A program made the position numbers and the translations under genes. From the IMG/VR virus record IMGVR_UViG_3300045947_000115, positions 1-51,079 of that record: 51,079 nucleotides of DNA, one strand, 5' to 3'. Below, one piece after another: positions 3,374-50,125 of the stretch. Source of the DNA: a virus. The notes beneath the pieces are model-generated. The model saw only the letters and a list, made by a program, of their open reading frames with translations, made no database searches and was not told where the DNA came from. How positions within the stretch are numbered: the stretch's first letter is position 1; the number at the start of each line of letters is the position of its first letter.

Positions 3374-4684
3374 CTAGTCGCCGGCCGGGCGCACGATGAT
3401 GATCGTCTGACCGGTGATGCCGTCCAGGCGCCAGTTCACCGCCGGGAAGCGCATGTGGTACTGGCGACGGATCCGGTACCACGCCTCGAACGCGTCACGC
3501 GCGCCCGAGCCGGTGCCGACGCGCACCAGTACCCGGCCGTCCTCGTCCACCCACTTGCCCGGCTCGGACTCGTACTTCACGGCCTCGCTGTTGGCCGTGT
3601 CGAGTCCGAAGACCATGTCGAGCGGGAGATCGCGGATGGCCTTGATGGGTACCTCACCCATCGTGAGATCGCCCTGCTGGAACGCGGCCGTGCCGCCATC
3701 CGGTCGCTGCGTGGCCGCGCCGATGTACCGGCGGTCGGCCTGCAGGATCGTGATGTAGACCCGGCGGATCGCGTGATGCATGCAGAGCAGGTTGGTTTTG
3801 CCGTTGAGCTTCTGATCAACGACGTCGGCCGCCTGCTGCATGACGTCCAGCGAGAGCGCTCCGGTCGCGGCCTTGACGTACGACTTGAACGCGTCGTAGA
3901 TGTCGCGGTCCACGCCGAAGTAGTTCGTGCGGTACGTCCCGTCATCGACGAGCGCCACGATGCCCCAGAAGGCATTCTCGTAGCTCGTGTCGAGGACGTC
4001 GGTCACGCTGTTGTTGGCCGCCTGGACGATGTAATCGCTGTCGGCGACCGACGCGTCGGCGGCCGAGTCGAGCACCACGCTGGTGCCGTCAGCCGAAACG
4101 CTTGTGACCTTTCGGATTCCGGTACGGAGCGCGCCTGTCGCCGGGTTGACGAACCCGATGAAGGTGTTCCGCATGATGAACCGGTTGCCGAAATTGTCGT
4201 TCGCGATCCCGCCAGGGGCGTCCACGGTCAGCGTGGTCGAACCGGACGGAGTCGCATCATCGACGAGCGCGAGGACGCCGCGGCCGTCCAGCGTCAGCGC
4301 GTATTCCTCGCGCCGAGCCAGATCCTTGATCAGCCCGTCCATCTCGTCCTTGCGCGCCTGCTTCCAGGCGTACTCGCCCTTGGACGTGTCGTAGATCGCC
4401 TCGGGGGTGATCCGGACGCGGCCCATGAGCTTCTTCTGTCCGACGCGCACTTCGACGTGCCCCTGCGCGCCCGCTTCGGCGAACGCGCCGTCCTCACCCG
4501 TGAACATGGGCGAGGTGTTGCGCGAGACGTGCGCCGTGTAGACGGTTTCGCGGCCGCCGTACGGCACGCTCTGCGTCTTGTAGACGTCCTTGAAGGGGTT
4601 CTTCTGGTTCACCTGTTCGGCGACGAAGGACTCGTAGTTCTCCTTCAGCAAGCCGTCGATGGTGACTGTGTTGGCACCGGTCAT
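3374..4684 (-). CDS. Major capsid protein (HK97-fold type)
   Basis: A 436-aa protein, the usual length for an unprocessed HK97-fold coat protein. It starts with an N-arm (TIDGLLKENYESFVAEQVNQKNPF), then a segment with VRITPEAIYDTSKGEYAW and a central helix with many charged residues (ARKDEMDGLIKDLARREEYAL, like the spine helix). A domain with GVDRDIYDAFKSYV and RDLPLDMVFGLD follows, and a C-terminal beta strand region (GQTIIIVRPA). It is preceded by the scaffold gene and followed by a terminator, the standard coat position. The N-arm is partly duplicated in the small protein at 13117-13431. Confidence 0.9.
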   Translation of the reverse strand: MTGANTVTIDGLLKENYESFVAEQVNQKNPFKDVYKTQSVPYGGRETVYTAHVSRNTSPMFTGEDGAFAEAGAQGHVEVRVGQKKLMGRVRITPEAIYDTSKGEYAWKQARKDEMDGLIKDLARREEYALTLDGRGVLALVDDATPSGSTTLTVDAPGGIANDNFGNRFIMRNTFIGFVNPATGALRTGIRKVTSVSADGTSVVLDSAADASVADSDYIVQAANNSVTDVLDTSYENAFWGIVALVDDGTYRTNYFGVDRDIYDAFKSYVKAATGALSLDVMQQAADVVDQKLNGKTNLLCMHHAIRRVYITILQADRRYIGAATQRPDGGTAAFQQGDLTMGEVPIKAIRDLPLDMVFGLDTANSEAVKYESEPGKWVDEDGRVLVRVGTGSGARDAFEAWYRIRRQYHMRFPAVNWRLDGITGQTIIIVRPAGD

Positions 4685-4705: not shown

Positions 4706-5743
4706 CTACCCGCCAGCGGCCGCGCGACGGCCCGCCTGGAACGAATTCCAGGCCGCATCATGCACCTGATCGGCTGTCAGTGGTTGACCGCCTCCGGCTC
4801 CCGCTCCGCCGCCCGCGCCTGCTGCGCCAGCGCCGCCGCCACGGGGCGCACCCGGCAGATTGCGATTGCCGGCGCCCGTGCCAGCGTCACCCGCTTGTGA
4901 CGCGCGTCGAATCGGATCGAGGAATCCCGAGCGGTACTCGGTGAGAAATTCTTCCGTGAGCTTCGGATCCTGCATCATGTAGCGGTCCATGAGCTTGTCA
5001 TCGCTCTTGAGCCAGCTCATGAAGCTGTTGCCGATCGAGGCCCGCTGGAAGGTGGAGAGTTCGTTGACGCCGTAGTCCTTCTGGAGCGCCGTGTAGATCG
5101 ACGTCATCGTCTGATGTCCACGGCTGGCCCAGATGGATTCGTGCGTGGAGGCCAGTTCGGGAAGGCGCCCGAGCAGCTCCGCCGGATCGCCGCCGCGGCT
5201 GAGCGCCGAGACGATGCGTTCGAGCGATTGGGCGTGCTGTTCGAGCTTGGCGAGACCGGGGAACACGGTGGCAAAGGTCTCGCGCGCTTCACGAATCTCC
5301 GGCGCCACTTCGGGTTCGCGCCCCGGAAAGTTAACGCCGGTCCCGGCTTCGAGCATGCGCCGGTACCGCTCGGCCTCAGCCAAGGCGGTCCGATGCGAGG
5401 CGGTCAGCCGGTCGTATCCCGCAATCCGTGGATCGTTCGGGTCGATCCAGTTGGCGCGGCCTCCGAACTCCGAATCGTACGCAAACTGTCGGCCTCCCGC
5501 AGCACCCGCACCGCCTGCGCCGGCACCCGCAGGACCGGTACCGGCAGCGCCGGCCCCCGCTCCTGCGCCTGCCGCTCCTGCGGCCGCGCCGGCTCCCGCG
5601 CCGGCCCCTGTGGTGGAAGGTCCGCCTTGCCCGCCTGCTGAGCCGGCGCCAGCTCCCGATCCTGCGGCTGCGCCTACACCTCCGGCGCCGGCACCGCCAC
5701 CAGCGTCCGTGTTGAACAGTTTCTGAAACGTGGGAATACGCAT
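4706..5743 (-). CDS. Capsid scaffolding protein with silk-like Gly/Ala arms
   Basis: A 345-aa protein between portal and coat, the classic scaffold position. Residues about 15-88 and 292-330 are almost pure Gly/Ala with few other residues, whereas the centre (about 90-290) is helical and charged (AEAERYRRMLEAG, EIREARETFATVFPGLAKLEQHAQSLERIVSAL), as expected for a scaffold core. A short ordered C-terminal helix (TADQVHDAAWNSFQAGRRAA) could be the coat-binding hook. The ATG has AGGA upstream; promoter and terminator elements lie between it and the portal gene. Confidence 0.8.
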   Translation of the reverse strand: MRIPTFQKLFNTDAGGGAGAGGVGAAAGSGAGAGSAGGQGGPSTTGAGAGAGAAAGAAGAGAGAGAAGTGPAGAGAGGAGAAGGRQFAYDSEFGGRANWIDPNDPRIAGYDRLTASHRTALAEAERYRRMLEAGTGVNFPGREPEVAPEIREARETFATVFPGLAKLEQHAQSLERIVSALSRGGDPAELLGRLPELASTHESIWASRGHQTMTSIYTALQKDYGVNELSTFQRASIGNSFMSWLKSDDKLMDRYMMQDPKLTEEFLTEYRSGFLDPIRRASQAGDAGTGAGNRNLPGAPRGGGAGAAGAGGGAGAGGGQPLTADQVHDAAWNSFQAGRRAAAGG

Positions 5744-5754
5744 TCGGTGTCCTG

Positions 5755-5765
5755 CCCTTCGTCAG
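5755..5765 (-). promoter_or_regulatory. Variant gene-junction motif CTGACGAAGGG before the scaffold gene
   Basis: The minus-strand sequence CTGACGAAGGG sits about 11 bases upstream of the scaffold ATG and is followed by CAGGA, which probably serves as ribosome site. It is a one-base variant of the CTGACGAGGGAG motif found at several other gene junctions in this genome. Confidence 0.4.
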
Positions 5766-5799
5766 CGGGGCCTGAGAGCCTGCAAACTGAGGCGGGAGG

Positions 5800-5826
5800 G
5801 TATTACGGATTTGTCAGAGGTGTCAA
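5800..5826 (-). promoter_or_regulatory. Candidate promoter for scaffold and coat genes
   Basis: The minus strand has a perfect TTGACA (complement of 5821-5826), 15 bases, then TAATAC (complement of 5800-5805). The spacing is two bases short of the sigma-70 optimum. It immediately follows the terminator after the portal gene and would give a leader of about 50 bases before the scaffold ATG. The interval also carries ACAAATCCGTAA, a copy of a motif shared with the control region. Confidence 0.5.
5802..5814 (-). promoter_or_regulatory. ACAAWTYCGTAA motif, scaffold copy
   Basis: The minus strand reads ACAAATCCGTAAT. Related copies are ACAATTTCGTAAG at 14132-14144 (plus strand) and ACAATTCCGTAAG at 44586-44598 (minus strand). 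It overlaps the candidate scaffold promoter spacer and -10 region. A regulator-binding or phage-specific promoter element is inferred. Confidence 0.45.
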
Positions 5827-5832
5827 GAAACG

Positions 5833-5871
5833 GGCGCGACACAGGTACGAAAAGTGTACCTGTGTCGCGCC
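5833..5871 (-). terminator. Strong hairpin terminator after the portal gene
   Basis: A perfect 16-bp inverted repeat: 5833-5848 pairs with 5856-5871 around a seven-base loop. It lies five bases past the portal stop codon. In the leftward transcript the stem is followed by CGTTTCTT, a short U-rich tail. The stem is also capable of folding on the other strand. It would isolate portal/terminase transcription from the scaffold/coat unit. Confidence 0.8.
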
Positions 5872-5875
5872 GGTA

Positions 5876-8191
5876 CTAGGCGGCTTTGCCGGCGTCGGCC
5901 CCGCCGCCCGGCTTGCCGCTTTCACGATTGGAATTGCGGGCCGCACGGCCGGCCCCGACACCGCCACCGTCTCGACCCTGGCCGCCACCCGGCGCGGGGG
6001 GCTGCGGGTTCTGCGCTTCGGCCTGGAGCTGCATCTTCGCGAGGGCCGCCATCTCGTGCTCCTGCAGATGCTGCCCGAGCTGCGCGACGATCTGCATGCC
6101 CTGCGGACCGGCCATCGCCAGGATCTCGCGCACGCGATCCGAATTCATCCACTTTCGATTTTCTTGAAGGTGAACGTCGTCCTGATGCCAGGGCATGCGA
6201 ATGAGCGGCATCGGTCCCTTGAAGCCCGCGGCGGCCCAGTCCTCGAAGGCTTGCTGTTCCTGCAGCGCCGATTTCACGTCGGCGTCGAGCGACGGTACCA
6301 GCCGCGTCAGGCCCAGCTCCTGCATGATGCCGTAGAGCTGATCGGGGTTCGACGCGTCGATGAGGCCGAGCTGGTTGGCGTGCTCGATAGCGGCGCGGCG
6401 ACCGAGCGCGGTCTTGGGTACGTTCGAGCCGTCTTCGATAACGATCTTCACCGGACCGTCGAGCTTGGCCTTCTGGAACGTCTTGAAGACCCAGGAGCCG
6501 TTCGGCCCCATCGCTTCCTTGACGCGCTCGGCCGGTCCGTGTTTGCGCTCCAGCTCCAACGCCACCTCGTACCACTGTCGGTACGCCAGCCCGCGCGATT
6601 TGAAGACCTTGGTGAAACGCGACTGGCTGCGCTCGACGAGAAGCTGCAGCGCCGAGAACGCTTCGACGCCCGAGGGCTTGGCGCCCTTCACGACGTCGTA
6701 GGTACCGGCGCCGTCTTCGATGTCGGCCATGTACTGCTGGCGGAGTTTGAAGAAGGCTTCGGGCGGATTCTCGCCGCTGAGCCGTTCGGGCTTGGCGCCC
6801 TGCGATCCGACCGGCTGCCATTTGATCACGAGACCCTGCTGGCCGGTGAGGCGCTCGACTTCGGCGCCCTTCGGTTCGAGCCACACGGCGTTGCCCATCC
6901 GGTTGACGGCCATCATCACGCTGCTGTCGTTGCGGTTGATCTGATCCTGCTTCCCCAGGATCATGTCGATCGCCGACATGCCGTAGATGCGGCCGCCAAT
7001 GCGTGAGTAGTTATAGTGAACCCAGGGCCAGAGGGCGGTACCCTCGAAGTTCTTGAATGGAATTTCCGGGCGGCCGCCTTCCATCGACGACGGGACCGGG
7101 ATCGCGTTCTCGCCTTCGCCGATGAACTGCACGAAGATGCCCTGCTCGAACTGGTTGTTCGGGCGAATCCACAGGTACTGCCGCGTGGCCCCGTCCGTCT
7201 CGCCCATGTTGGCGCTGCTGTTCCACTGCTGCGGCGTGATGGGCAGATCAGACTGCACCGCGAGACTGCGGTAGAGCTGGAGCGATCGCTGCTCGGGCGT
7301 TTTCGTCCACTGGACGTTCTTGAGCAAGTCGCTGCCGAATTCCGCTTCGAGTTCGTGCCGCGGCGACCAATCGAGATAGATCAGGCGATCGGCGCGTTTG
7401 AAATTCGACGCGTAGAGCGGCAAGAGGATTTCGAGCGGAGACGCGACGATCGTACGGCCGCGGCCGAGCACGATGCGCTGGGTCGCCGGGCTGCCGTCCG
7501 GGTTCATCGCCGGGCGGAGCGCGCCGGATCCGCAATTCGGGCAACGGTTCTGCGCCTGCTGGATCTGATCGGGCGAGAAGACGCCTTTGCAGAGCTGGCA
7601 CTGATCAAGCTGCACCATCCGGATGTTGCGCGGATCGTCCTTGTCCCAGTGCGGGTGGAGAAACGCCGAACCCAGGAGGGCCGCCCAGAAGTCCGCGTCG
7701 GTCAACACCTCGTCCATCTGGTGCTCGTCGTGGACGAGCGGCGCGATGTCGTCGGCGACTTGTGCAGTCAACACGTTCCTCGGGCGCTGCCCGACCGGGC
7801 GCGCGTCGATGCCGGGCGCGATGTCGGCCAGGAGCGCCAGGACGGTTTCGAGGGTCTCGCGGACTTTGTTCGTGACCGGCTTCGGTACCCAGATCGCTTG
7901 CCGTACGTCTTGGAAGGTGCGCGAGGTGGGATTCCAGTAGATCCACTGGCGCCCGAGCAGATACATGAGCGCCCGCCACCAGCCCTGCTCGAAGACTTCG
8001 CGGCCCGTGTCGCAGAACTCCCGCGTCTTCTTCAGCAGTTCGAGCTGCGCGCGGGGTTCCTTGATCGCCTCGTAGGGGTCTGTCGGGCCGGTACCGGTAC
8101 CGGTATTGCGCCCGAAGATCCGCTGCGCGACGGCGTCCGCAAATCCCGGCGGTTCGGGGCCACTGTTGGGAGGACCGACGTCGATCGCCAT
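5876..8191 (-). CDS. Portal protein with inserted zinc ribbon
   Basis: A 771-aa protein in the portal position right after the large terminase, of the large P22-like portal class. Features include an N-terminal helical region (RAQLELLKKTREFCDTGREVF), WNPTSRTFQDVRQAIWVPKPVTNKVRETLETVLALL, a central segment (HYNYSRIGGRIYGMSAIDMILGKQDQINRND) typical of portal stem approach, and a long C-terminal helical barrel region with a Gly-rich tail. At about residues 215-245 there is a Cys4 motif (CQLC ... CPNC), an unusual zinc-ribbon insertion. The ATG has TAGGAGCAG upstream. The portal forms the dodecameric DNA channel at one capsid vertex. Confidence 0.88.
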   Translation of the reverse strand: MAIDVGPPNSGPEPPGFADAVAQRIFGRNTGTGTGPTDPYEAIKEPRAQLELLKKTREFCDTGREVFEQGWWRALMYLLGRQWIYWNPTSRTFQDVRQAIWVPKPVTNKVRETLETVLALLADIAPGIDARPVGQRPRNVLTAQVADDIAPLVHDEHQMDEVLTDADFWAALLGSAFLHPHWDKDDPRNIRMVQLDQCQLCKGVFSPDQIQQAQNRCPNCGSGALRPAMNPDGSPATQRIVLGRGRTIVASPLEILLPLYASNFKRADRLIYLDWSPRHELEAEFGSDLLKNVQWTKTPEQRSLQLYRSLAVQSDLPITPQQWNSSANMGETDGATRQYLWIRPNNQFEQGIFVQFIGEGENAIPVPSSMEGGRPEIPFKNFEGTALWPWVHYNYSRIGGRIYGMSAIDMILGKQDQINRNDSSVMMAVNRMGNAVWLEPKGAEVERLTGQQGLVIKWQPVGSQGAKPERLSGENPPEAFFKLRQQYMADIEDGAGTYDVVKGAKPSGVEAFSALQLLVERSQSRFTKVFKSRGLAYRQWYEVALELERKHGPAERVKEAMGPNGSWVFKTFQKAKLDGPVKIVIEDGSNVPKTALGRRAAIEHANQLGLIDASNPDQLYGIMQELGLTRLVPSLDADVKSALQEQQAFEDWAAAGFKGPMPLIRMPWHQDDVHLQENRKWMNSDRVREILAMAGPQGMQIVAQLGQHLQEHEMAALAKMQLQAEAQNPQPPAPGGGQGRDGGGVGAGRAARNSNRESGKPGGGADAGKAA

Positions 8192-8695: not shown

Positions 8696-8714
8696 GCTCC
8701 CTCGTCAGGGTTTC
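8696..8714 (-). repeat. 19-bp gene-junction repeat, minus-strand copy
   Basis: The minus strand reads GAAACCCTGACGAGGGAGC, starting within the terminase stop codon and ending nine bases before the next ATG. The identical 19-mer occurs on the plus strand at 21327-21345, also between a stop and a start codon. Confidence 0.8.
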
Positions 8715-10299
8715 AAAAGCCGGGGTACATGCCCAGCATGGCCTCTTCGTCACCCGGTACCATCGGGTAGGAGTCGCCCATGTCGAGCTGGCGTTCCTCT
8801 TCGGTCTTCTTCCGCTCCAATTCTTCGATCCGGCGCATGCGTTCGAGTTCGAGTCGCGTGTTGTCGGGCATGCCGGAGAGATCCCGCGACTTCGTGTGGA
8901 TCGGATCACTCTTCGGCCGCTCCGGATAGAGCATCAGCGCGTACCGGAGCGCGTCGGGCAAATCGTCGTGCTTCTTATACACGAGTTCCCGGTTGTGGGT
9001 CGAGCCGTCGCGCTTATCTTGCTCGGCCCAGCGGTACGACTTCAGCCGCTTGATGAGTTTCGGGCAGCACGAGCGCGGCAGGACAAGGCCCGCCGGGAGC
9101 TGACCGGGCTTGTGCTTCGAGGCGATCATCCACGAGGCGACTCGGTTGATGCCGGCGACGACGTCGTTGTCGGCCTCGGTCGTGAAGAGACCGTACATCG
9201 CCAGTTCGAGCATGGCCTGGGCCTGCGATCGATCGATACCGACACGGCAGCCGGAGAAGCCGCGGCGCATCTGCTGGATCTCAGCCGAGTGGAGCTGGTA
9301 GACGCGGTTGCGTTCTTCGTACTCGCCGACGACGACGAGGCCGCGGGGCGAATGGACGAGATGGACACCCGCGAAGGGGTGATCGGTACCAGGATCGAGG
9401 CCCGTGATGGCCGGCCGCGACAGATCGAGATTCGGCCACTCAGGAAAGTAGTGCTTCATTTCCTCGTCGGTACCGGCGATCTCGCAGTGCGGCACGTACT
9501 CGCCGTAGATGGCGCCCGTGAAGGTGACGATGTCGGCGAGGTACTCTTGCCGGAACATCAGCTCCGACATCGAGCTGCGCGCTTCTTCGACTTCCTCGGG
9601 GTCGATGATCGGGTTGTCGAGCGTCGTGTAGTGGCACGCCCAGTAGCCGGGGCGGCCTTCTTCGGCCGGGACGTAGAACGCTTCGTGGACCCAGTCTTCG
9701 CCCTTCGGCGTCGTGGTACCGATGAGAATGCCGCGCTGCTCGGTCAGCGTCGGGCGAATCGTTTCCCAGTGCTTGAGCGTGAGCTTGCAAATCTCATCGA
9801 TCCAGAGCCAGCCGAGGCCAGGGCCGCGGCCGCGCTCGGGATCTTCGAGCGACCGGAACTGCGTGATCGCGCGATTGGGGAGGATGAGCGTGTATTCGGA
9901 CTCTGACCAATCGGTGCGCGGGTCGTCGAGCCACACCTGGGGAATCTGTTTGAAGAAGGCCGGCAAGACGAAGTCTTCGAGTTCGGTGTAGGTCGGCGCG
10001 CAACACCAGCCAGTGGAGAGTGGTACCGACGTTTCGCGAATCGACGCGACCGCGCCGATGCGGGTCTTGCCGCCGCGGCGCCCGGCACGGAGCAGGAAGC
10101 GTTTGAAGCCGCGCTGCCCGCCGGTCTTGCAGATCGGGCAGATCATGGTGGCCGTCGTGCCGTCGTACGGGTGGACCCACTTGTGGCCGGCGGCGCACGT
10201 CCGCACCGCGACCGCTTCCATGAACGCGACCTGATACGGATTGTGTTTGAGCGCAACCAGCGGATGCGGGTTGGCGAGTTTGAGACGCTGAACCGCCAC
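8713..10299 (-). CDS. terL: Terminase large subunit with N-terminal zinc motif
   Basis: A 528-aa packaging ATPase/nuclease. The Walker A motif AGRRGGKT is at residues 72-79 and Walker B LGWLWIDE ends at D168-E169. TTTPKG follows as the coupling motif. The RNase-H-like nuclease has its acidic residues in GLDPGTD, GIDRSQA and the C-terminal DDLPDALRYAL. Between the N-terminal NPYQ (adenine-binding Q motif, residues 20-23) and Walker A lies a C35-x3-H39 ... C54-x2-C57 motif that looks like a zinc-binding insertion. The start is a GTG at 10299 with no good ribosome site; it lies six bases after the preceding stop. Confidence 0.95.
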   Translation of the reverse strand: MAVQRLKLANPHPLVALKHNPYQVAFMEAVAVRTCAAGHKWVHPYDGTTATMICPICKTGGQRGFKRFLLRAGRRGGKTRIGAVASIRETSVPLSTGWCCAPTYTELEDFVLPAFFKQIPQVWLDDPRTDWSESEYTLILPNRAITQFRSLEDPERGRGPGLGWLWIDEICKLTLKHWETIRPTLTEQRGILIGTTTPKGEDWVHEAFYVPAEEGRPGYWACHYTTLDNPIIDPEEVEEARSSMSELMFRQEYLADIVTFTGAIYGEYVPHCEIAGTDEEMKHYFPEWPNLDLSRPAITGLDPGTDHPFAGVHLVHSPRGLVVVGEYEERNRVYQLHSAEIQQMRRGFSGCRVGIDRSQAQAMLELAMYGLFTTEADNDVVAGINRVASWMIASKHKPGQLPAGLVLPRSCCPKLIKRLKSYRWAEQDKRDGSTHNRELVYKKHDDLPDALRYALMLYPERPKSDPIHTKSRDLSGMPDNTRLELERMRRIEELERKKTEEERQLDMGDSYPMVPGDEEAMLGMYPGF

Positions 10300-11058: not shown

Positions 11059-11715
11059 CTACATCGACCCGCCCGCGATCGTCAATAAACCAGGGGTCGT
11101 GTCGGCGTCTTCGAGGGCCATGTCGATCGCCATCTTGTCGGTCATGGGCCGGAGCGATCGATACACTTCCTGGCCGTTGCGGAGGTAGGTGACGACGCCG
11201 TCGCGGACCATGACGCGCACGAGGGTACCGTTCACCGCCGGCAGCGTCACGCGGATCTCGAAGTTCTCGATGACGTACATCTTGCCGAACGAAATGACGA
11301 TCGAGTACGCGAAACGCTCGGTGTCGGTCGAAAGGCCGAACTGGCGGCGCTTCTGATCGCGGACAAGGAGTTCGAGATAGCCGGCGGTGGGGTAGAGCTT
11401 CAGCGGCGACCGCATGTTGATCATCGGCAGCCGAATTTCGTTGATGACGACGACGGTACTGGACGAGGTACCGACGTTCTGAGCCTGATCGCGCGCCTGC
11501 GCGGTCAGCCGATAGCTCATGTTCGGGCATTTCGTCGTGTCCCACTGAAACGACACGTCTACACTGCTGGCGGGCGGCGTGATCGGCACGTCGCGGTTGA
11601 AGCTGTCGAGGCAGCTTTGCGGAATCAGGAGCTGCACACCGCGCCGGGGCGATTCGACGACAGGCCAGTTCACGAGCAGGATGGTGGCGACCGCCAGAAT
11701 GCGAATTTTGAACAT
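11059..11715 (-). CDS. Exported or membrane-anchored protein of unknown function, 218 aa
   Basis: The N-terminus MFKIRILAVATILLVNWPVV is a short basic n-region followed by about 13 hydrophobic residues, so a signal peptide or anchor is likely. The rest is beta-rich, with two Cys in the first 65 residues (SCLD, KCPN) that could form a disulphide in the periplasm. It also has a jelly-roll-like C-terminal half (VIENFEIRVTLPAVNGTLVRVMVRDGVVTYLRNGQEVYR). No family is recognised. An exported product inside a head-gene operon is unusual. Confidence 0.65.
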   Translation of the reverse strand: MFKIRILAVATILLVNWPVVESPRRGVQLLIPQSCLDSFNRDVPITPPASSVDVSFQWDTTKCPNMSYRLTAQARDQAQNVGTSSSTVVVINEIRLPMINMRSPLKLYPTAGYLELLVRDQKRRQFGLSTDTERFAYSIVISFGKMYVIENFEIRVTLPAVNGTLVRVMVRDGVVTYLRNGQEVYRSLRPMTDKMAIDMALEDADTTPGLLTIAGGSM

Positions 11716-11939: not shown

Positions 11940-12443
11940 CTACAAACCGGGCTGGAGCACGTCGAGAATCGAGCGCAAGACGGTGTCGCGCTCGGCCTGG
12001 GCATCGAAGTTCAGGACGATCGGCGCTCCAGCGGGGAAGTAGAGGACGATCGAGAACGTCGCCTGCGCGGTACCGTTGTCGATCGAGTGGATCGCGTGCG
12101 CCTCGCGCAGTTTTGCCAGCGACAGGTGCAGTTCTGACGACTTCCCCTTCACCGTCAGCACCTTGTCGCGCATGAGCGGACGGTTCGGATCGGGCAGCGG
12201 CACGATCGGTTCGAGTGAGAGGCCCGTGGCGCCGCGCTCGATTTGCCACTGCAGCATCGCGAGGCGAATCTGATCGGCCTCGAAGCGTTGTTCGGCGGTG
12301 GCAACGCCGGCCGTCGCTTCGATCCAGCGCTGCACGATGCGCGGGCCGTAGCGGTCCTGGGCGCGCAGAATGAAGACGGGTTCGTCGGGCGCCGTGGTGT
12401 TCCAGACGGAGCGCGGATCGTCCTGCTGCTGCTGCTTGGTCAT
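11940..12443 (-). CDS. Virion-region protein, 167 aa
   Basis: Unrecognised. After a Gln-rich start (MTKQQQQDD) comes a helical region (RIVQRWIEATAGVATAEQRFEADQIRLAMLQWQIERG). Then a beta region follows with KGKSSELHLSLAKLREAHAIHSIDNGTAQATFSIVLYFPAG and a final helix (ERDTVLRSILDVLQPGL). The ATG overlaps the stop of the small terminase gene, so the two are coupled. Confidence 0.65.
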   Translation of the reverse strand: MTKQQQQDDPRSVWNTTAPDEPVFILRAQDRYGPRIVQRWIEATAGVATAEQRFEADQIRLAMLQWQIERGATGLSLEPIVPLPDPNRPLMRDKVLTVKGKSSELHLSLAKLREAHAIHSIDNGTAQATFSIVLYFPAGAPIVLNFDAQAERDTVLRSILDVLQPGL

Positions 12444-13120
12444 GAGCTGGCTCCTACGATCTCGCGCTCGACGACGTCGGCGTCGATGACTTGCCCGTCC
12501 GTGATCTGCTTGGGCTGGGCCGCAGTTCCGTGGATGCTGCCCGCGGCCGAGTGGACCCGTACCTCCTGCCCGTTGGCATCGCGCATCAGCTCGGGCGTCT
12601 CGAAGCGCACCACCAGCGCCGGCAGCTCGACGGCCAGCTTGCCTTCCCCTTCGCTGTGGCGCTTGAGTTTGCCGCGGCCCTTGAGCGTCTCGATGGTGTA
12701 GTCCTTGTCGCCGGCCAGCAGGCCATGCACGAGGTTCTCGGCGGCGAGTGGTACCGCCGTCTCGTCGAGCATCTGATCGATGGACCCTTCGGCCACGAGG
12801 CGGCGGTGCTGCACGAACCACTGCGTCACGGTCGGCGTGGTGACGCCCAGCTCGGCGGCGATCTCGTTCATCGAGTGGCCGGCGGTGAAGAGAGCCAGGG
12901 CCTTCTGCGTGAGCGCGCGGCGTTGCTTCGAGCGGCCGCTGACGCCCGGCTTCTTGCGGAGCTGGCGGTCGAGTTCGAGCTGGTTGTCGGGGTTCGACGC
13001 GTGGAGCAGCGGGGACGCGCCAAGGTACGTGCGGCCGTTCTCGTCCTCGAATTCCTCTTCGTCGGGCCGCCGATGCGGGTTGAGCTGCGGCTTGCCCTTG
13101 CCGTTGAGCTGCGGCTTCAC
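12440..13120 (-). CDS. Putative small terminase subunit (HTH DNA-binding)
   Basis: A 226-aa protein with a clear helix-turn-helix at about residues 72-108 (ALALFTAGHSMNEIAAELG, then TTPTVTQWFVQHR). A central helical region and a C-terminal beta part follow (KLAVELPALVVRFETPEL). Small terminases bind the packaging site through such a domain and sit upstream of terL, as here, though seven small genes intervene. The N-terminus has an internal repeat (KPQLNGKGKPQLN). It starts at GTG 13120, overlapping the upstream stop. An alternative is a transcription regulator. Confidence 0.65.
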   Translation of the reverse strand: MKPQLNGKGKPQLNPHRRPDEEEFEDENGRTYLGASPLLHASNPDNQLELDRQLRKKPGVSGRSKQRRALTQKALALFTAGHSMNEIAAELGVTTPTVTQWFVQHRRLVAEGSIDQMLDETAVPLAAENLVHGLLAGDKDYTIETLKGRGKLKRHSEGEGKLAVELPALVVRFETPELMRDANGQEVRVHSAAGSIHGTAAQPKQITDGQVIDADVVEREIVGASS

Positions 13121-13431
13121 CAGTGGCCTCGCGCATTCTGGACGTCGAGCACGAGCTGATCCATATCCTCGCGGACGACCCGCGCGAGTGAGCCGCTGCG
13201 GACGCGTTCGAGATCCTCGCGGCTGAACGTGACAGTGGTCGTGCCCGTGCGACGTCCGACAATGTAGAGCGGGTTGCGCGCCTGGAGCTGCTCGATCGTC
13301 GGATGGCTGTAGGCTTCCTTGAGCAGCCCGTCCACCTGGGCTGTCGTTAGACCGGTACCGCGTGGCCGCGGCGCCGCCTTCGGCACGACAATGAGCGCGA
13401 CGAGTGAGGCGAGGAACCCTCGGCGGTTCAT
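13117..13431 (-). CDS. Exported-looking protein that copies the capsid N-arm, 104 aa
   Basis: The N-terminus NRRGFLASLVALIVVPKAA has twin arginines, Phe-Leu and a hydrophobic stretch, the form of a Tat or Sec signal. Residues 33-55 (VDGLLKEAYSHPTIEQLQARNPL) align without gaps to coat-protein residues 9-31 (IDGLLKENYESFVAEQVNQKNPF), with 11 identities and several conservative changes. A possible further match is TTTVTFSRE to the coat TVYTAHVSR. It could be a partial coat paralogue, an assembly factor or a decoy. It overlaps its neighbours by ATGA junctions. The function is unknown. Confidence 0.65.
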   Translation of the reverse strand: MNRRGFLASLVALIVVPKAAPRPRGTGLTTAQVDGLLKEAYSHPTIEQLQARNPLYIVGRRTGTTTVTFSREDLERVRSGSLARVVREDMDQLVLDVQNARGHW

Positions 13432-13640
13432 GGCTCGGCCATTCTAACCCGCTTCGGGGCGGGGAGCTGCAGGAGCGTGCGGCCGGTCATGGCGTCGATG
13501 ACCCGGACCCGCCGATGCCACTCGCGGCGGAGGCGCATGGCGGCAATGGCGGCGTCGTCGAGCGTGTCGTGGTGACTGTCGCTCGACCACTCCCGGTGAT
13601 GCCCCCGGTCCGATGCCGCCTGCACCCAGTACGGCTTCAC
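13428..13640 (-). CDS. Small Arg/His-rich protein, 70 aa
   Basis: The sequence MKPYWVQAASDRGHHREWSSDSHHDTLDDAAIAAMRLRREWHRRVRVIDAMTGRTLLQLP has the shape of a small alpha/beta domain in which a helix (DDAAIAAMRLRREW) precedes a strand pair (RVRVIDAMTGRTLLQLP). Such a layout is seen in small proteins of unknown function in many phages. It starts with GTG overlapping the previous stop codon (GTGA). No function is assigned. Confidence 0.55.
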   Translation of the reverse strand: MKPYWVQAASDRGHHREWSSDSHHDTLDDAAIAAMRLRREWHRRVRVIDAMTGRTLLQLPAPKRVRMAEP

Positions 13641-19433: not shown

Positions 19434-19655
19434 ATGAGGGCCAACGAGGTACGCGACAACGGACGGGTGAAGTACATGGCGCCCAACGGGCGCATCTACA
19501 CAGGAGTGATCTGGCGCCGGTTGATGAGTTCGGCCCTGGAGGTATGGGTCAAGTTCGACGAGTGGCCGCCACACCTCAAACACCACTTCGGGGCTGACGA
19601 CAGCCGGCACAATCACGCACTGATGGACATCGAAGATTTGGACGTCGTGCGATGA
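19434..19655 (+). CDS. Small accessory protein, 73 aa
   Basis: MRANEVRDNGRVKYMAPNGRIYTGVIWRRLMSSALEVWVKFDEWPPHLKHHFG. The strand pattern suggests a small SH3-like beta barrel. A GGGGGG stretch lies six bases before the ATG. ATGA overlap with the DUF4326-like gene. The function is unknown. Confidence 0.6.
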   Translation: MRANEVRDNGRVKYMAPNGRIYTGVIWRRLMSSALEVWVKFDEWPPHLKHHFGADDSRHNHALMDIEDLDVVR

Positions 19656-19945
19656 GCGATCAGCCGCGCGTCTGGAACAAGAAGGATCCCAAGACCCCCG
19701 CCGACGCCGTCTACGTGGGGCGGCCGACGAAGTGGGGGAACCCGTTCAAGATCGGCCGGGACGGTACCAGGGCCGAGGTACTCGCCAAATACCGGTGCCT
19801 GTTCGCCGAGCTGCGACTGTGGACCGTGGCGCGCGAGGAACTGAAGGGCAAGCACCTTGTCTGCTGGTGCGCGCCGGCTCCGTGTCATGCCGACTTCCTG
19901 CTCGAAGTGGCGAACGCGCCACCGGGGTCTGCAATCAAGCTATAG
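19652..19945 (+). CDS. DUF4326-like protein, 97 aa
   Basis: The order V-Y-V-G-R-P-T-K-W-G-N-P-F-K-I-G (residues 20-35), A-K-Y-R-C-L-F, E-L-K-G-K-H-L-V-C-W-C-A-P-A-P-C-H-A-D-F-L-L is the signature of DUF4326, a small family common in phages and plasmids. The invariant WGNPF and CWC-x3-x-CH segments are intact. The biochemical role is unknown; the conserved Cys/His suggest metal or nucleotide binding. Confidence 0.85.
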   Translation: MSDQPRVWNKKDPKTPADAVYVGRPTKWGNPFKIGRDGTRAEVLAKYRCLFAELRLWTVAREELKGKHLVCWCAPAPCHADFLLEVANAPPGSAIKL

Positions 19946-19998
19946 AGAACGTTTACAGCGCACGAGCGCACCACGGGACATTCAAACCCGGCTACCTG

Positions 19999-20008
19999 TT
20001 TAGATATA
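19999..20008 (+). promoter_or_regulatory. TTTAGATATA element before the gene at 20024
   Basis: The ten bases match the element at the leftward promoter (complement of 13918-13927). Here it is followed by GGGGATC and the ATG sixteen bases later. It sits in the 78-base gap after the DUF4326-like gene. A -10 role is possible, but I see no good -35. Confidence 0.35.
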
Positions 20009-20023
20009 GGGGATCTTGATCTT

Positions 20024-20536
20024 ATGGCGTCACCGATTCGGCAACACGCCCAGGCACTACTCGGGTTGCGGCGCACGCTCCGCGAAGAGACCGCACGCGA
20101 GGCCAAGCGGCGCCGGCAGCGACAGCAGGACGCCCGCGCCAGGAGCGCCGCCCGCGGCCCACGGTGGCGCGGCACGGCCTATCAGGAGCGCGCGGGGCAG
20201 GAAGGGCTGATCGCGCGCCTCGGGCTGCCCCTGGCGCCCGTCAGGCGGGCGAAGGCCAGCTTCTGGCACGAGCTGGGACCGCCGCCCGAGTGTCGGCCGG
20301 GCGAGTTCGACAAGGCCAAGATATTCGAGCGCCGGGTCATGGAGCTGCTCGACCGCGGCGGGTGGCCGAAGGTGGAGTACATCACGCTCCGCAAGCTGGC
20401 GGTCAAGTGGGGACGCCGAGCGCGCGGCGAGGATTTCAGATTTGTCATCGCCGGTACCGCCGCGGGCCGGTTGCCGAAGGAGCTGGATCAGGACGTGCGG
20501 GCGGTCCGCGCGGCGAAGGAGGCGGAGCATGGCTGA
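20024..20536 (+). CDS. Basic accessory protein, 170 aa
   Basis: The N-terminal 55 residues are nearly all Arg/Ala/Gln helix (TLREETAREAKRRRQRQQDARARSAARG). The rest contains FDKAKIFERRVMELLDRGGWPKVEYITLRKLAVKWGRRARGEDFRFVIAG, perhaps a small nucleic-acid-binding domain. First gene after a small gap, so possibly from its own promoter. No family is recognised. Confidence 0.65.
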   Translation: MASPIRQHAQALLGLRRTLREETAREAKRRRQRQQDARARSAARGPRWRGTAYQERAGQEGLIARLGLPLAPVRRAKASFWHELGPPPECRPGEFDKAKIFERRVMELLDRGGWPKVEYITLRKLAVKWGRRARGEDFRFVIAGTAAGRLPKELDQDVRAVRAAKEAEHG

Positions 20537-48736: not shown

Positions 48737-50125
48737 TTAGCCCCCAATGCCAACAAAGCACTCGAAGGACTGCCAGAGGAACTGCCGCGCCACGCCCGAC
48801 TCTTTCGTCGTCGCGCCCCAAATATGAAACGCCGTGACGCCGGTCACGGGGACGTTGTCGGTCTTCGCGACTTCGGTCCCGTCGTTCACCGAGTAGTAGA
48901 TGGTGGGCGTCCCGGTCCGCACGAACCGGATGCGGAGCTTGTAGGTGGTGCTGGCCTGGATCGATCCCAGGTTGCCCGAGGTGGCGGTCGAGGCGCCGTT
49001 GATCGAACTGTAGCCCATCCAGCCGGTGTCGCTGGCCGGCGTCGAGTACCGGATGAACATGGCACCGTTCGAGGCCGTGCCAAGCGTCTCGCTGTCCGTC
49101 ATCGCCACCGACGAGAGACCCGCAATCAGGCGGATCAGCGTGATCGTCGCGGGCGTGCGAACCACGTAGCTGCAGTCGATGTCGTCTTCCCACCACCGGA
49201 GCTGGCTGCCCGTCGTGCTCATGTACGACGTGTTGCCATCGACGGTACCGGTGCTCCATGTGCCGAACGACCCCTGGCCGGTCACGAAGGTGCGCGTGTG
49301 GCTGTTCAGGGAGTTCCCAGTCGGCGCCGCCGAAAACCCGATCCAGCCGGCGCCGAGGCCCGGTGTCGAAGAGTCGTTCACGGCATGGCGGAAGTGCTGA
49401 TAGGGCGCCGTGTCGCCGAAGCCCATCATCGGGTACCAGCCGTACGCCGTCGAACCGCCGCCCCGCTTGAGATACATGCGGCCGTTGGTCGTGTTGCGGT
49501 ACATCCGGCCGGCCGCGCCCGTCGTCACGCCTTGAGGGTTGCCGGCGCCGGTCAAGATCATTTCCGCGTTCGTGACGGAGATCGCCGCAAACGTCGGGCT
49601 GTCCGTCGTTCGCACGTTCTGATCCATCGCGTATAGCTCGTTGGCACCTTGGCCGGTGTTCAGGGTCGCGGCCGCCCACGCGCCGGTACCCGTCAGCGCG
49701 CCCGTGACTTTGTTGAAAATCAGCGCGGCGACTCCGCCGAAGCTGCCGCCGTCGTTGAACTGCACCATCGTGTCGGAGCCGCCAGGGGTGCCGGCGACGT
49801 CGTCAGCACACGTCCAACCGCCCGCACCGTCCGACGCCGGATGCTGACTGAGCGTGCAGCCAGTGGGGAGCGACTGACCGGCCGGCAAGACAAACGGGAA
49901 TGCCGTTGTCCCAAGCGCGATCCCCGTCCGTGACGGCAGGAGCGCCGACGTCGTGACTTGCAGCATCGAGCGGCCGCCCGACCAAATTTCGGTGGCGCGC
50001 TGATCGGCGGTACCCAAACAGACACCGGGCGGGCAGAGATTCGTGACGAAGTTCTGGCGCGCATCGGCCGGCATCGCGAGTGCGACGAACGCAGCGATGA
50101 GTACCGCTTTCGTGAGTCGAGACAT
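48737..50125 (-). CDS. Tail/fibre protein with N-terminal signal peptide, 462 aa
   Basis: MSRLTKAVLIAAFVALAMPADARQ looks like a cleavable signal peptide (basic start, hydrophobic core, A-D-A cleavage). The Cys pair CPPGVC follows, which may form a disulphide. The middle has GGSDTMVQFNDGGSFGGVAAL, a phage tail-fibre stalk pattern. The C-terminal half (SSTPGLGAGWIGFSAAPTG ... TATSGNLGSIQASTTYKLRIRFV) is beta-sandwich-like. A signal on a virion protein is unusual. The ATG at 50125 overlaps the previous stop. Confidence 0.7.
   Translation of the reverse strand: MSRLTKAVLIAAFVALAMPADARQNFVTNLCPPGVCLGTADQRATEIWSGGRSMLQVTTSALLPSRTGIALGTTAFPFVLPAGQSLPTGCTLSQHPASDGAGGWTCADDVAGTPGGSDTMVQFNDGGSFGGVAALIFNKVTGALTGTGAWAAATLNTGQGANELYAMDQNVRTTDSPTFAAISVTNAEMILTGAGNPQGVTTGAAGRMYRNTTNGRMYLKRGGGSTAYGWYPMMGFGDTAPYQHFRHAVNDSSTPGLGAGWIGFSAAPTGNSLNSHTRTFVTGQGSFGTWSTGTVDGNTSYMSTTGSQLRWWEDDIDCSYVVRTPATITLIRLIAGLSSVAMTDSETLGTASNGAMFIRYSTPASDTGWMGYSSINGASTATSGNLGSIQASTTYKLRIRFVRTGTPTIYYSVNDGTEVAKTDNVPVTGVTAFHIWGATTKESGVARQFLWQSFECFVGIGG

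Follow-up and report, generated by a model that had tools for sequence, protein, structure and literature searches.

Several phage systems are known in which a small protein acts on a virion protein, or in which a host protein recognizes one. Tab, from the Pseudomonas prophage JBD26, is a protein of 83 aa whose gene lies next to the terminase genes in the late operon; it acts on a virion protein, the tape measure, at tail assembly, and has its own promoter and an anti-Tab partner (PMC10884400). The Ltp-type lipoproteins of Streptococcus thermophilus phages are also small, carry a signal sequence, are found at the membrane and are linked to the tape measure, and they are made in the prophage state, from genes of the lysogeny module (PMC3952083). 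On the host side, coat proteins directly trigger immunity through CapRel, and Lit recognizes the Gol peptide of the T4 coat, a segment inside the coat protein that activates defence (PMC9712102). Lastly, the Tat pathway exports partners that are bound to a leader-bearing subunit (PMC4273604). The class of genes considered here, which join an export-type leader to a piece of one of the phage's own structural proteins, was not found in the open-licence literature on phage-encoded Tat proteins, capsid decoys or dominant-negative fragments, which agrees with the preliminary description of the locus, where the gene type was said not to be a known one.

The gene that introduces this class, P0001, encodes a 104-aa protein at 13117..13431 on the minus strand of the window, the whole analysed stretch of 51,079 nucleotides, and its ORF translation begins MNRRGFLASLVALIVVPKAAPRPRGTGLTTAQVDGLLKEAYSHPTIEQLQARNPLYIVGRR.... 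We take it to be a real gene because its start and its stop each overlap an adjoining gene: the start ATG is shared, as ATGA, with the TGA stop of the preceding 70-aa ORF (13428..13640, minus; from the ORF list), and the TGA stop is shared, as GTGA, with the GTG start of an HTH protein (12440..13120, minus; Pfam HTH_23 above cut-off) that is probably the small terminase subunit, having weak matches to terminase small-subunit families. With overlaps at both ends, P0001 is arranged as translationally coupled genes are, here in the packaging and head operon, as the same strand continues with the genes for the large terminase subunit (8713..10299, minus; PHROG 2, E 3e-37), a P22-like portal (5876..8191, minus; PHROG 156, Pfam P22_portal) and the major coat protein (3374..4684, minus). 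A probable scaffold (4706..5743, minus) is assigned by its position between portal and coat, and matched none of the families searched. The operon also holds a 218-aa protein (11059-11715, minus) with a hydrophobic, signal-like N-terminus (MFKIRILAVATILLVNWPVV), for which the family search likewise found no match, and elsewhere in the window a tRNA-Ser (CGA) is predicted at 48890-48979 on the plus strand, antisense within a long minus-strand ORF.

The leader of P0001, MNRRGFLASLVALIVVP (13381..13431, minus), consists of an RRxFL motif and one hydrophobic stretch (hydropathy peak 2.17 over 14 residues), and fits the M(N/S)RRxFL start of the class proposed below. The motif and stretch are thus present as expected for the Tat- or Sec-like signal of the preliminary description, but P0001 gave no match to the Tat model TIGR01409 at E<=5 and so does not reach its curated cut-off of 16.7 bits, which four analogues in other phages (L052, L070, L171 and L077) pass with 17-22 bits. 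A relaxed leader scan of the window listed no other protein with an RRxFL leader motif.

Behind this leader, residues 26-56 of P0001 (13264..13356, minus) align with residues 2-32 of the coat protein (its N-arm, 4589..4681, minus) over 31 residues without gaps and with 45% identity, so that the build first reported, a signal-like leader followed by an ungapped coat N-arm segment, stands. The parent gene is recognized as a coat gene by NCBIfam capsid_maj_Podo (NF033394, 83.7 bits, cut-off 80) and by PHROG 14242, major head protein (E 6.6e-28). The earlier view that the similarity is above chance is borne out by a profile comparison of P0001 with 18 coat relatives (hhalign P 2.7e-5, probability 74%) and by shuffling the post-leader part of P0001, which reached the observed score in none of 5000 trials against the coat protein and in none of 300 against any gene of the window. 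Within the window phmmer gave the pair a local E-value of 4.7e-4, and across 129 records the own-coat match ranked first, at 13.7 bits compared with 8.5 for the next best. Taken alone, these comparisons give good though not overwhelming support for a copy; what makes it convincing is that the same design occurs, with much stronger matches, in independent phages. P0001 holds only these 31 N-arm residues and had no family match as a full coat protein, and the source of its C-terminal 48 residues (13120..13263, minus) is not recognizable, as comparison with the window returned only P0001 itself. Structure prediction, proposed earlier as a check, gave helices in both proteins, including one at residues 6-28 of the coat N-arm, but at low confidence (mean pLDDT 55 for the coat protein and 43 for P0001); a helical N-arm and a helical copy would be mutually consistent, which is not evidence for copying, and a fold search placed phage capsids as its top four matches with poor TM-scores.

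Relatives of P0001 itself are few. The only one among viral contigs is a sister contig, identical over 13,355 bases, which therefore adds no evolutionary evidence; none was divergent, a search among cultured phages gave nothing meaningful, and no curated family matched. The check proposed earlier, whether relatives keep both halves, comes out negative for close relatives: L005, the closest in terminase and coat with a readable region, has no leader gene upstream of the small terminase gene, and the P0001 gene is lineage-specific within its own phage group. A scan of 46 loci with related coat genes found a small MNRRSFL protein in one further phage, L052, whose coat is 49% identical; the second half of this protein is similar to another part of the L052 coat (E 2e-9). 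Other features of these loci were also seen. The L052 coat ORF carries a signal-like stretch, MRRFSLSPLFMLLGVFAVMPVGTLWAG (9917-9990), directly ahead of the N-arm, and the 124-aa gene before the L052 leader gene (5548-5922) starts like the next coat stretch, RSDHPFFRSYVQSSSGALTLDMM, its whole protein matching the coat at E 0.014. The coat proteins of L014, L015 and L030 have unusual, partly hydrophobic N-terminal extensions, while those of L037 and L050 start with a common extra module (INTKVVIDMxTGD...GY.Y.GPVA), which suggests that N-terminal modules are swapped on phage coat proteins.

We surveyed the design in small phage ORFs chosen by leader spelling alone (MNRRxFL, MSRRxFL). The leader proteins are among the matches listed of a pattern scan and thus not a strictly random sample. 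The first 22 residues were cut and the remainder was compared with all ORFs >=180 aa of its own record and of all other records; expected counts are matches to mismatched genomes, and E-values are local. In the first set, 10 of the 83 leader proteins among the matches listed had an own-genome match of at least 10 bits, where 0.40 was expected, while small same-strand genes around the leaders matched in 4 of 241 cases (1.05 expected), mostly to small paralogues. Leaving out the cases that prompted the survey, an own ORF >=300 aa was matched by 8 of 80 leaders and by 1 of 241 neighbours (Fisher p 8e-5); other small genes matched an own gene product of that length in 4 of 1750 cases. A larger set of 130 proteins, nearly all but not all chosen by the M(N/S)RRxFL start alone, gave 16 own-genome matches of at least 10 bits among the matches listed, compared with 0.77 expected, and the rhizobial tape-measure cases, being mutually related, should be counted as one. 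In ~85% of leader proteins no structural cargo is recognizable, partly since many records are fragments, and as records are often partial the recognizable fraction is a lower bound. A PHROG scan of all 83 cargoes yielded just five families at E<=0.01, of which three are structural; pieces so short and diverged call for a finer tool than family models, hence our use of own-genome comparison. Cargoes seen only by eye and not confirmed by the tools (TerL in L352, a decoration protein in L376 and L385, LamG in L151 and L154) were left uncounted. Leader genes usually occur once per record, with few exceptions; G015, the record of L089, may encode two leader proteins, a second ORF at 19639-20142 having a WPFRKIFLPA leader-linker. 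By eye, the leader proteins of L344 and L393 each seem to join two separate coat segments, a build partly supported in L393 by a cross-genome match.

Among 14 classified targets nine are coat proteins, which take up only ~2-6% of coding length (p 3e-9 to 3e-11), and the remainder are mostly tape-measure proteins (L080, L084, L104, L105, phiLM21 and S. medicae L533). The coats belong to several unrelated families and are copied in diverse places: P22-type coats at the N-terminus (L171, L077, L330), the insertion domain (L177) or the C-terminus (L320, 8.6 bits), an HK97-type coat (L414), a Phage_capsid_4 coat (L103) and a T4-like PHROG 138 coat (L531) at the C-terminus, coats of PHROG 267 (L363) and PHROG 9953 (L529) at the N-terminus, and NF033394 coats at the N-arm in the window and in the middle in L052. 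At least six phages have copied the coat N-terminus independently of each other. Thus the coat N-arm copy of the preliminary description is present but is not special to the N-arm, as other coat and tail segments are copied too. Weaker cargo matches lead to portal and tail-fibre segments of the same phage; in L070 the leader protein carries a portal-like segment, the majority of whose cultured-phage matches lie in portal proteins, and its own portal matches weakly.

The copies are about 45-60% identical to their parent proteins and stand behind leaders with several linker types (SSLM, LLWVPG, RVWSFP, PFRKIF, FFLPPAGGW). Two leader proteins with the FFLPPAGGW-type linker carry the N-termini of different coats, each the phage's own (P22-type in L171, 39.8 bits; PHROG 9953 in L529, 44.4 bits), and a third leader similar to that of L171, in L531, lacks this linker and precedes the C-terminus of its own T4-like coat (20.6 bits). 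Related leaders with differing own-coat cargoes indicate that the leader is kept constant and the cargo replaced from the phage's own genome. In one rhizobial family (five genomes including phiLM21) leader and cargo are both under purifying selection, the leader strongly conserved (dN/dS 0-0.2, near zero for most pairs) and the cargo evolving faster (0.15-0.58). P0001 is one case of a single-copy class that recurs widely, in unrelated phages, and in which an RRxFL leader precedes a cargo from one of the phage's own structural proteins, mostly the coat.

What such proteins do is suggested by their build. We favour, at a probability of roughly 35%, the reading that P0001 is a membrane-directed self-mimic that would occupy a host factor or partner recognizing the copied segment. 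A decoy for host sensors was one of three roles put forward in the preliminary description, beside an assembly competitor and a membrane tether. The leader would bring P0001 to the inner membrane or across it, by Tat or Sec, and the cargo would there bind whatever normally binds the coat N-arm, probably something that varies among hosts, such as a host sensor of coat or other structural proteins. The decoy would then keep this partner at the membrane, or export it as Tat passengers do, while free coat protein proceeds to assembly; Tat carrying a bound partner out would be a concrete if speculative route, by analogy with the export of bound partners noted above. A partner that varies among hosts is likelier than one fixed assembly partner because the copied segments, and even the copied proteins, differ, and a single fixed assembly partner is unlikely because these segments have no common structural role. 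Similarly, the class as a whole is unlikely to act specifically through N-arm contacts, as other segments are copied as often. In favour of the decoy stand the excess of own-genome matches, the bias towards coat proteins, the differing own-coat cargoes behind related leaders, the selection seen in the rhizobial family, the direct triggering of host immunity by coat proteins (PMC9712102) and the export of bound partners by Tat (PMC4273604). Against it stand the ~85% of leader proteins in which no structural cargo is recognizable, the lack of a divergent relative of P0001 and its failure to reach the Tat cut-off; moreover, tape-measure and fibre segments are not the commonest triggers known. For the class at large, we regard as doubtful, though worth stating, the reading that many tailed-phage lineages keep a dedicated gene in which the export-type leader alone is constant, while coat or tail proteins of the same phage serve time and again as the source of the cargo, and that the products are exported self-mimics by which host sensors of virion proteins are blinded or removed.

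The main rival, itself unlikely but the strongest of the alternatives, holds that the work is done by the leader, as a small membrane-active or translocase-occupying peptide, and that the cargo is filler, picked up from late genes through illegitimate recombination. A soluble tail of any kind would then suffice, so the recognizable structural fragments would be young, decaying captures. Leader dN/dS near 0 with clearly higher values in the cargo fits this, as do the majority of cargoes without a recognizable source, the lineage-specific occurrence of the gene in the window's phage group, and the several leader-linker types each found with unrelated cargoes. Yet the coat bias is strong and goes beyond the genome share of coat genes, several leaders lie kilobases away from the copied gene or on the opposite strand, the copies are old by their divergence but still recognizable, and cargo in the tested rhizobial family remains under purifying selection.

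An improbable third explanation, close to the membrane tether once suggested for proheads, is that the copy docks like its parent segment and the leader ties particles to the inner membrane during assembly or entry. Every confidently identified target is indeed a virion protein, the coat N-terminus recurs as cargo, and the L052 coat has its own signal-like stretch ahead of the N-arm; but the copies also include pieces of the coat I-domain and C-terminus and the tails of tape-measure proteins, which share no docking role, and most phages lack such a gene. It is more improbable still that the fragment is dominant-negative or excludes superinfecting phages, stopping the assembly or entry of relatives as Tab and Ltp do through tape-measure proteins. 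A small late-operon protein beside terminase genes resembles Tab (PMC10884400), tape-measure tails are recurrent cargo, and an Ltp-like action would fit a protein placed at the membrane or surface (PMC3952083). However, a P0001-type protein would hit its own phage, since its best match is that phage's own protein; coat segments of an incoming phage stay outside the cell; neither Tab nor Ltp has been described as a structural-protein fragment; and no integrase was found among the tested window proteins, so lysogenic expression is doubtful in the window phage. That a short helical segment is similar merely by chance, for which one could cite a single pair of only 13.7 bits over ~31 residues, is very improbable given the shuffles (0/5000), the hhalign P of 2.7e-5 and the surplus of own-genome matches across the class.

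Hypothetical proteins of small size with a leader occur here and there in phage genomes and seldom receive attention. If many of them copy coat or tail proteins of their own phage and are directed to the membrane, they form an unrecognized gene class. In that case the copied segment would mark the part of each virion protein that some partner recognizes, and so offer a sequence-based route to such partners, be they host sensors, entry factors or partners in assembly. Should the cargo be filler, the class would still reveal a conserved phage leader peptide. A cultured example, gp60 of Sinorhizobium phage phiLM21, makes the class testable.

Compared with the systems described at the outset, P0001 shares with Tab its small size and late-operon position beside terminase genes; unlike P0001, Tab was described without similarity to known proteins and hence is no fragment of its target (PMC10884400), and it acts through the tape measure where P0001 copies the coat protein. 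The likeness to Ltp lies in small size, a signal-like sequence, a presumed membrane location and, for the class, a tape-measure link, but Ltp is a lipoprotein expressed in the prophage state and not a copy of one of the phage's own structural proteins (PMC3952083). With Gol and CapRel the parallel would be a defence protein that recognizes the coat or a short segment of it, although the Gol segment acts from inside the coat protein and that of P0001 is separately encoded behind a leader. Finally, the class resembles twin-arginine leader proteins (TIGR01409) in its RRxFL motif and hydrophobic stretch, several analogues but not P0001 passing the cut-off; known Tat substrates are mostly folded enzymes, whereas the cargoes of these leaders are virion-protein pieces of 40-110 residues.
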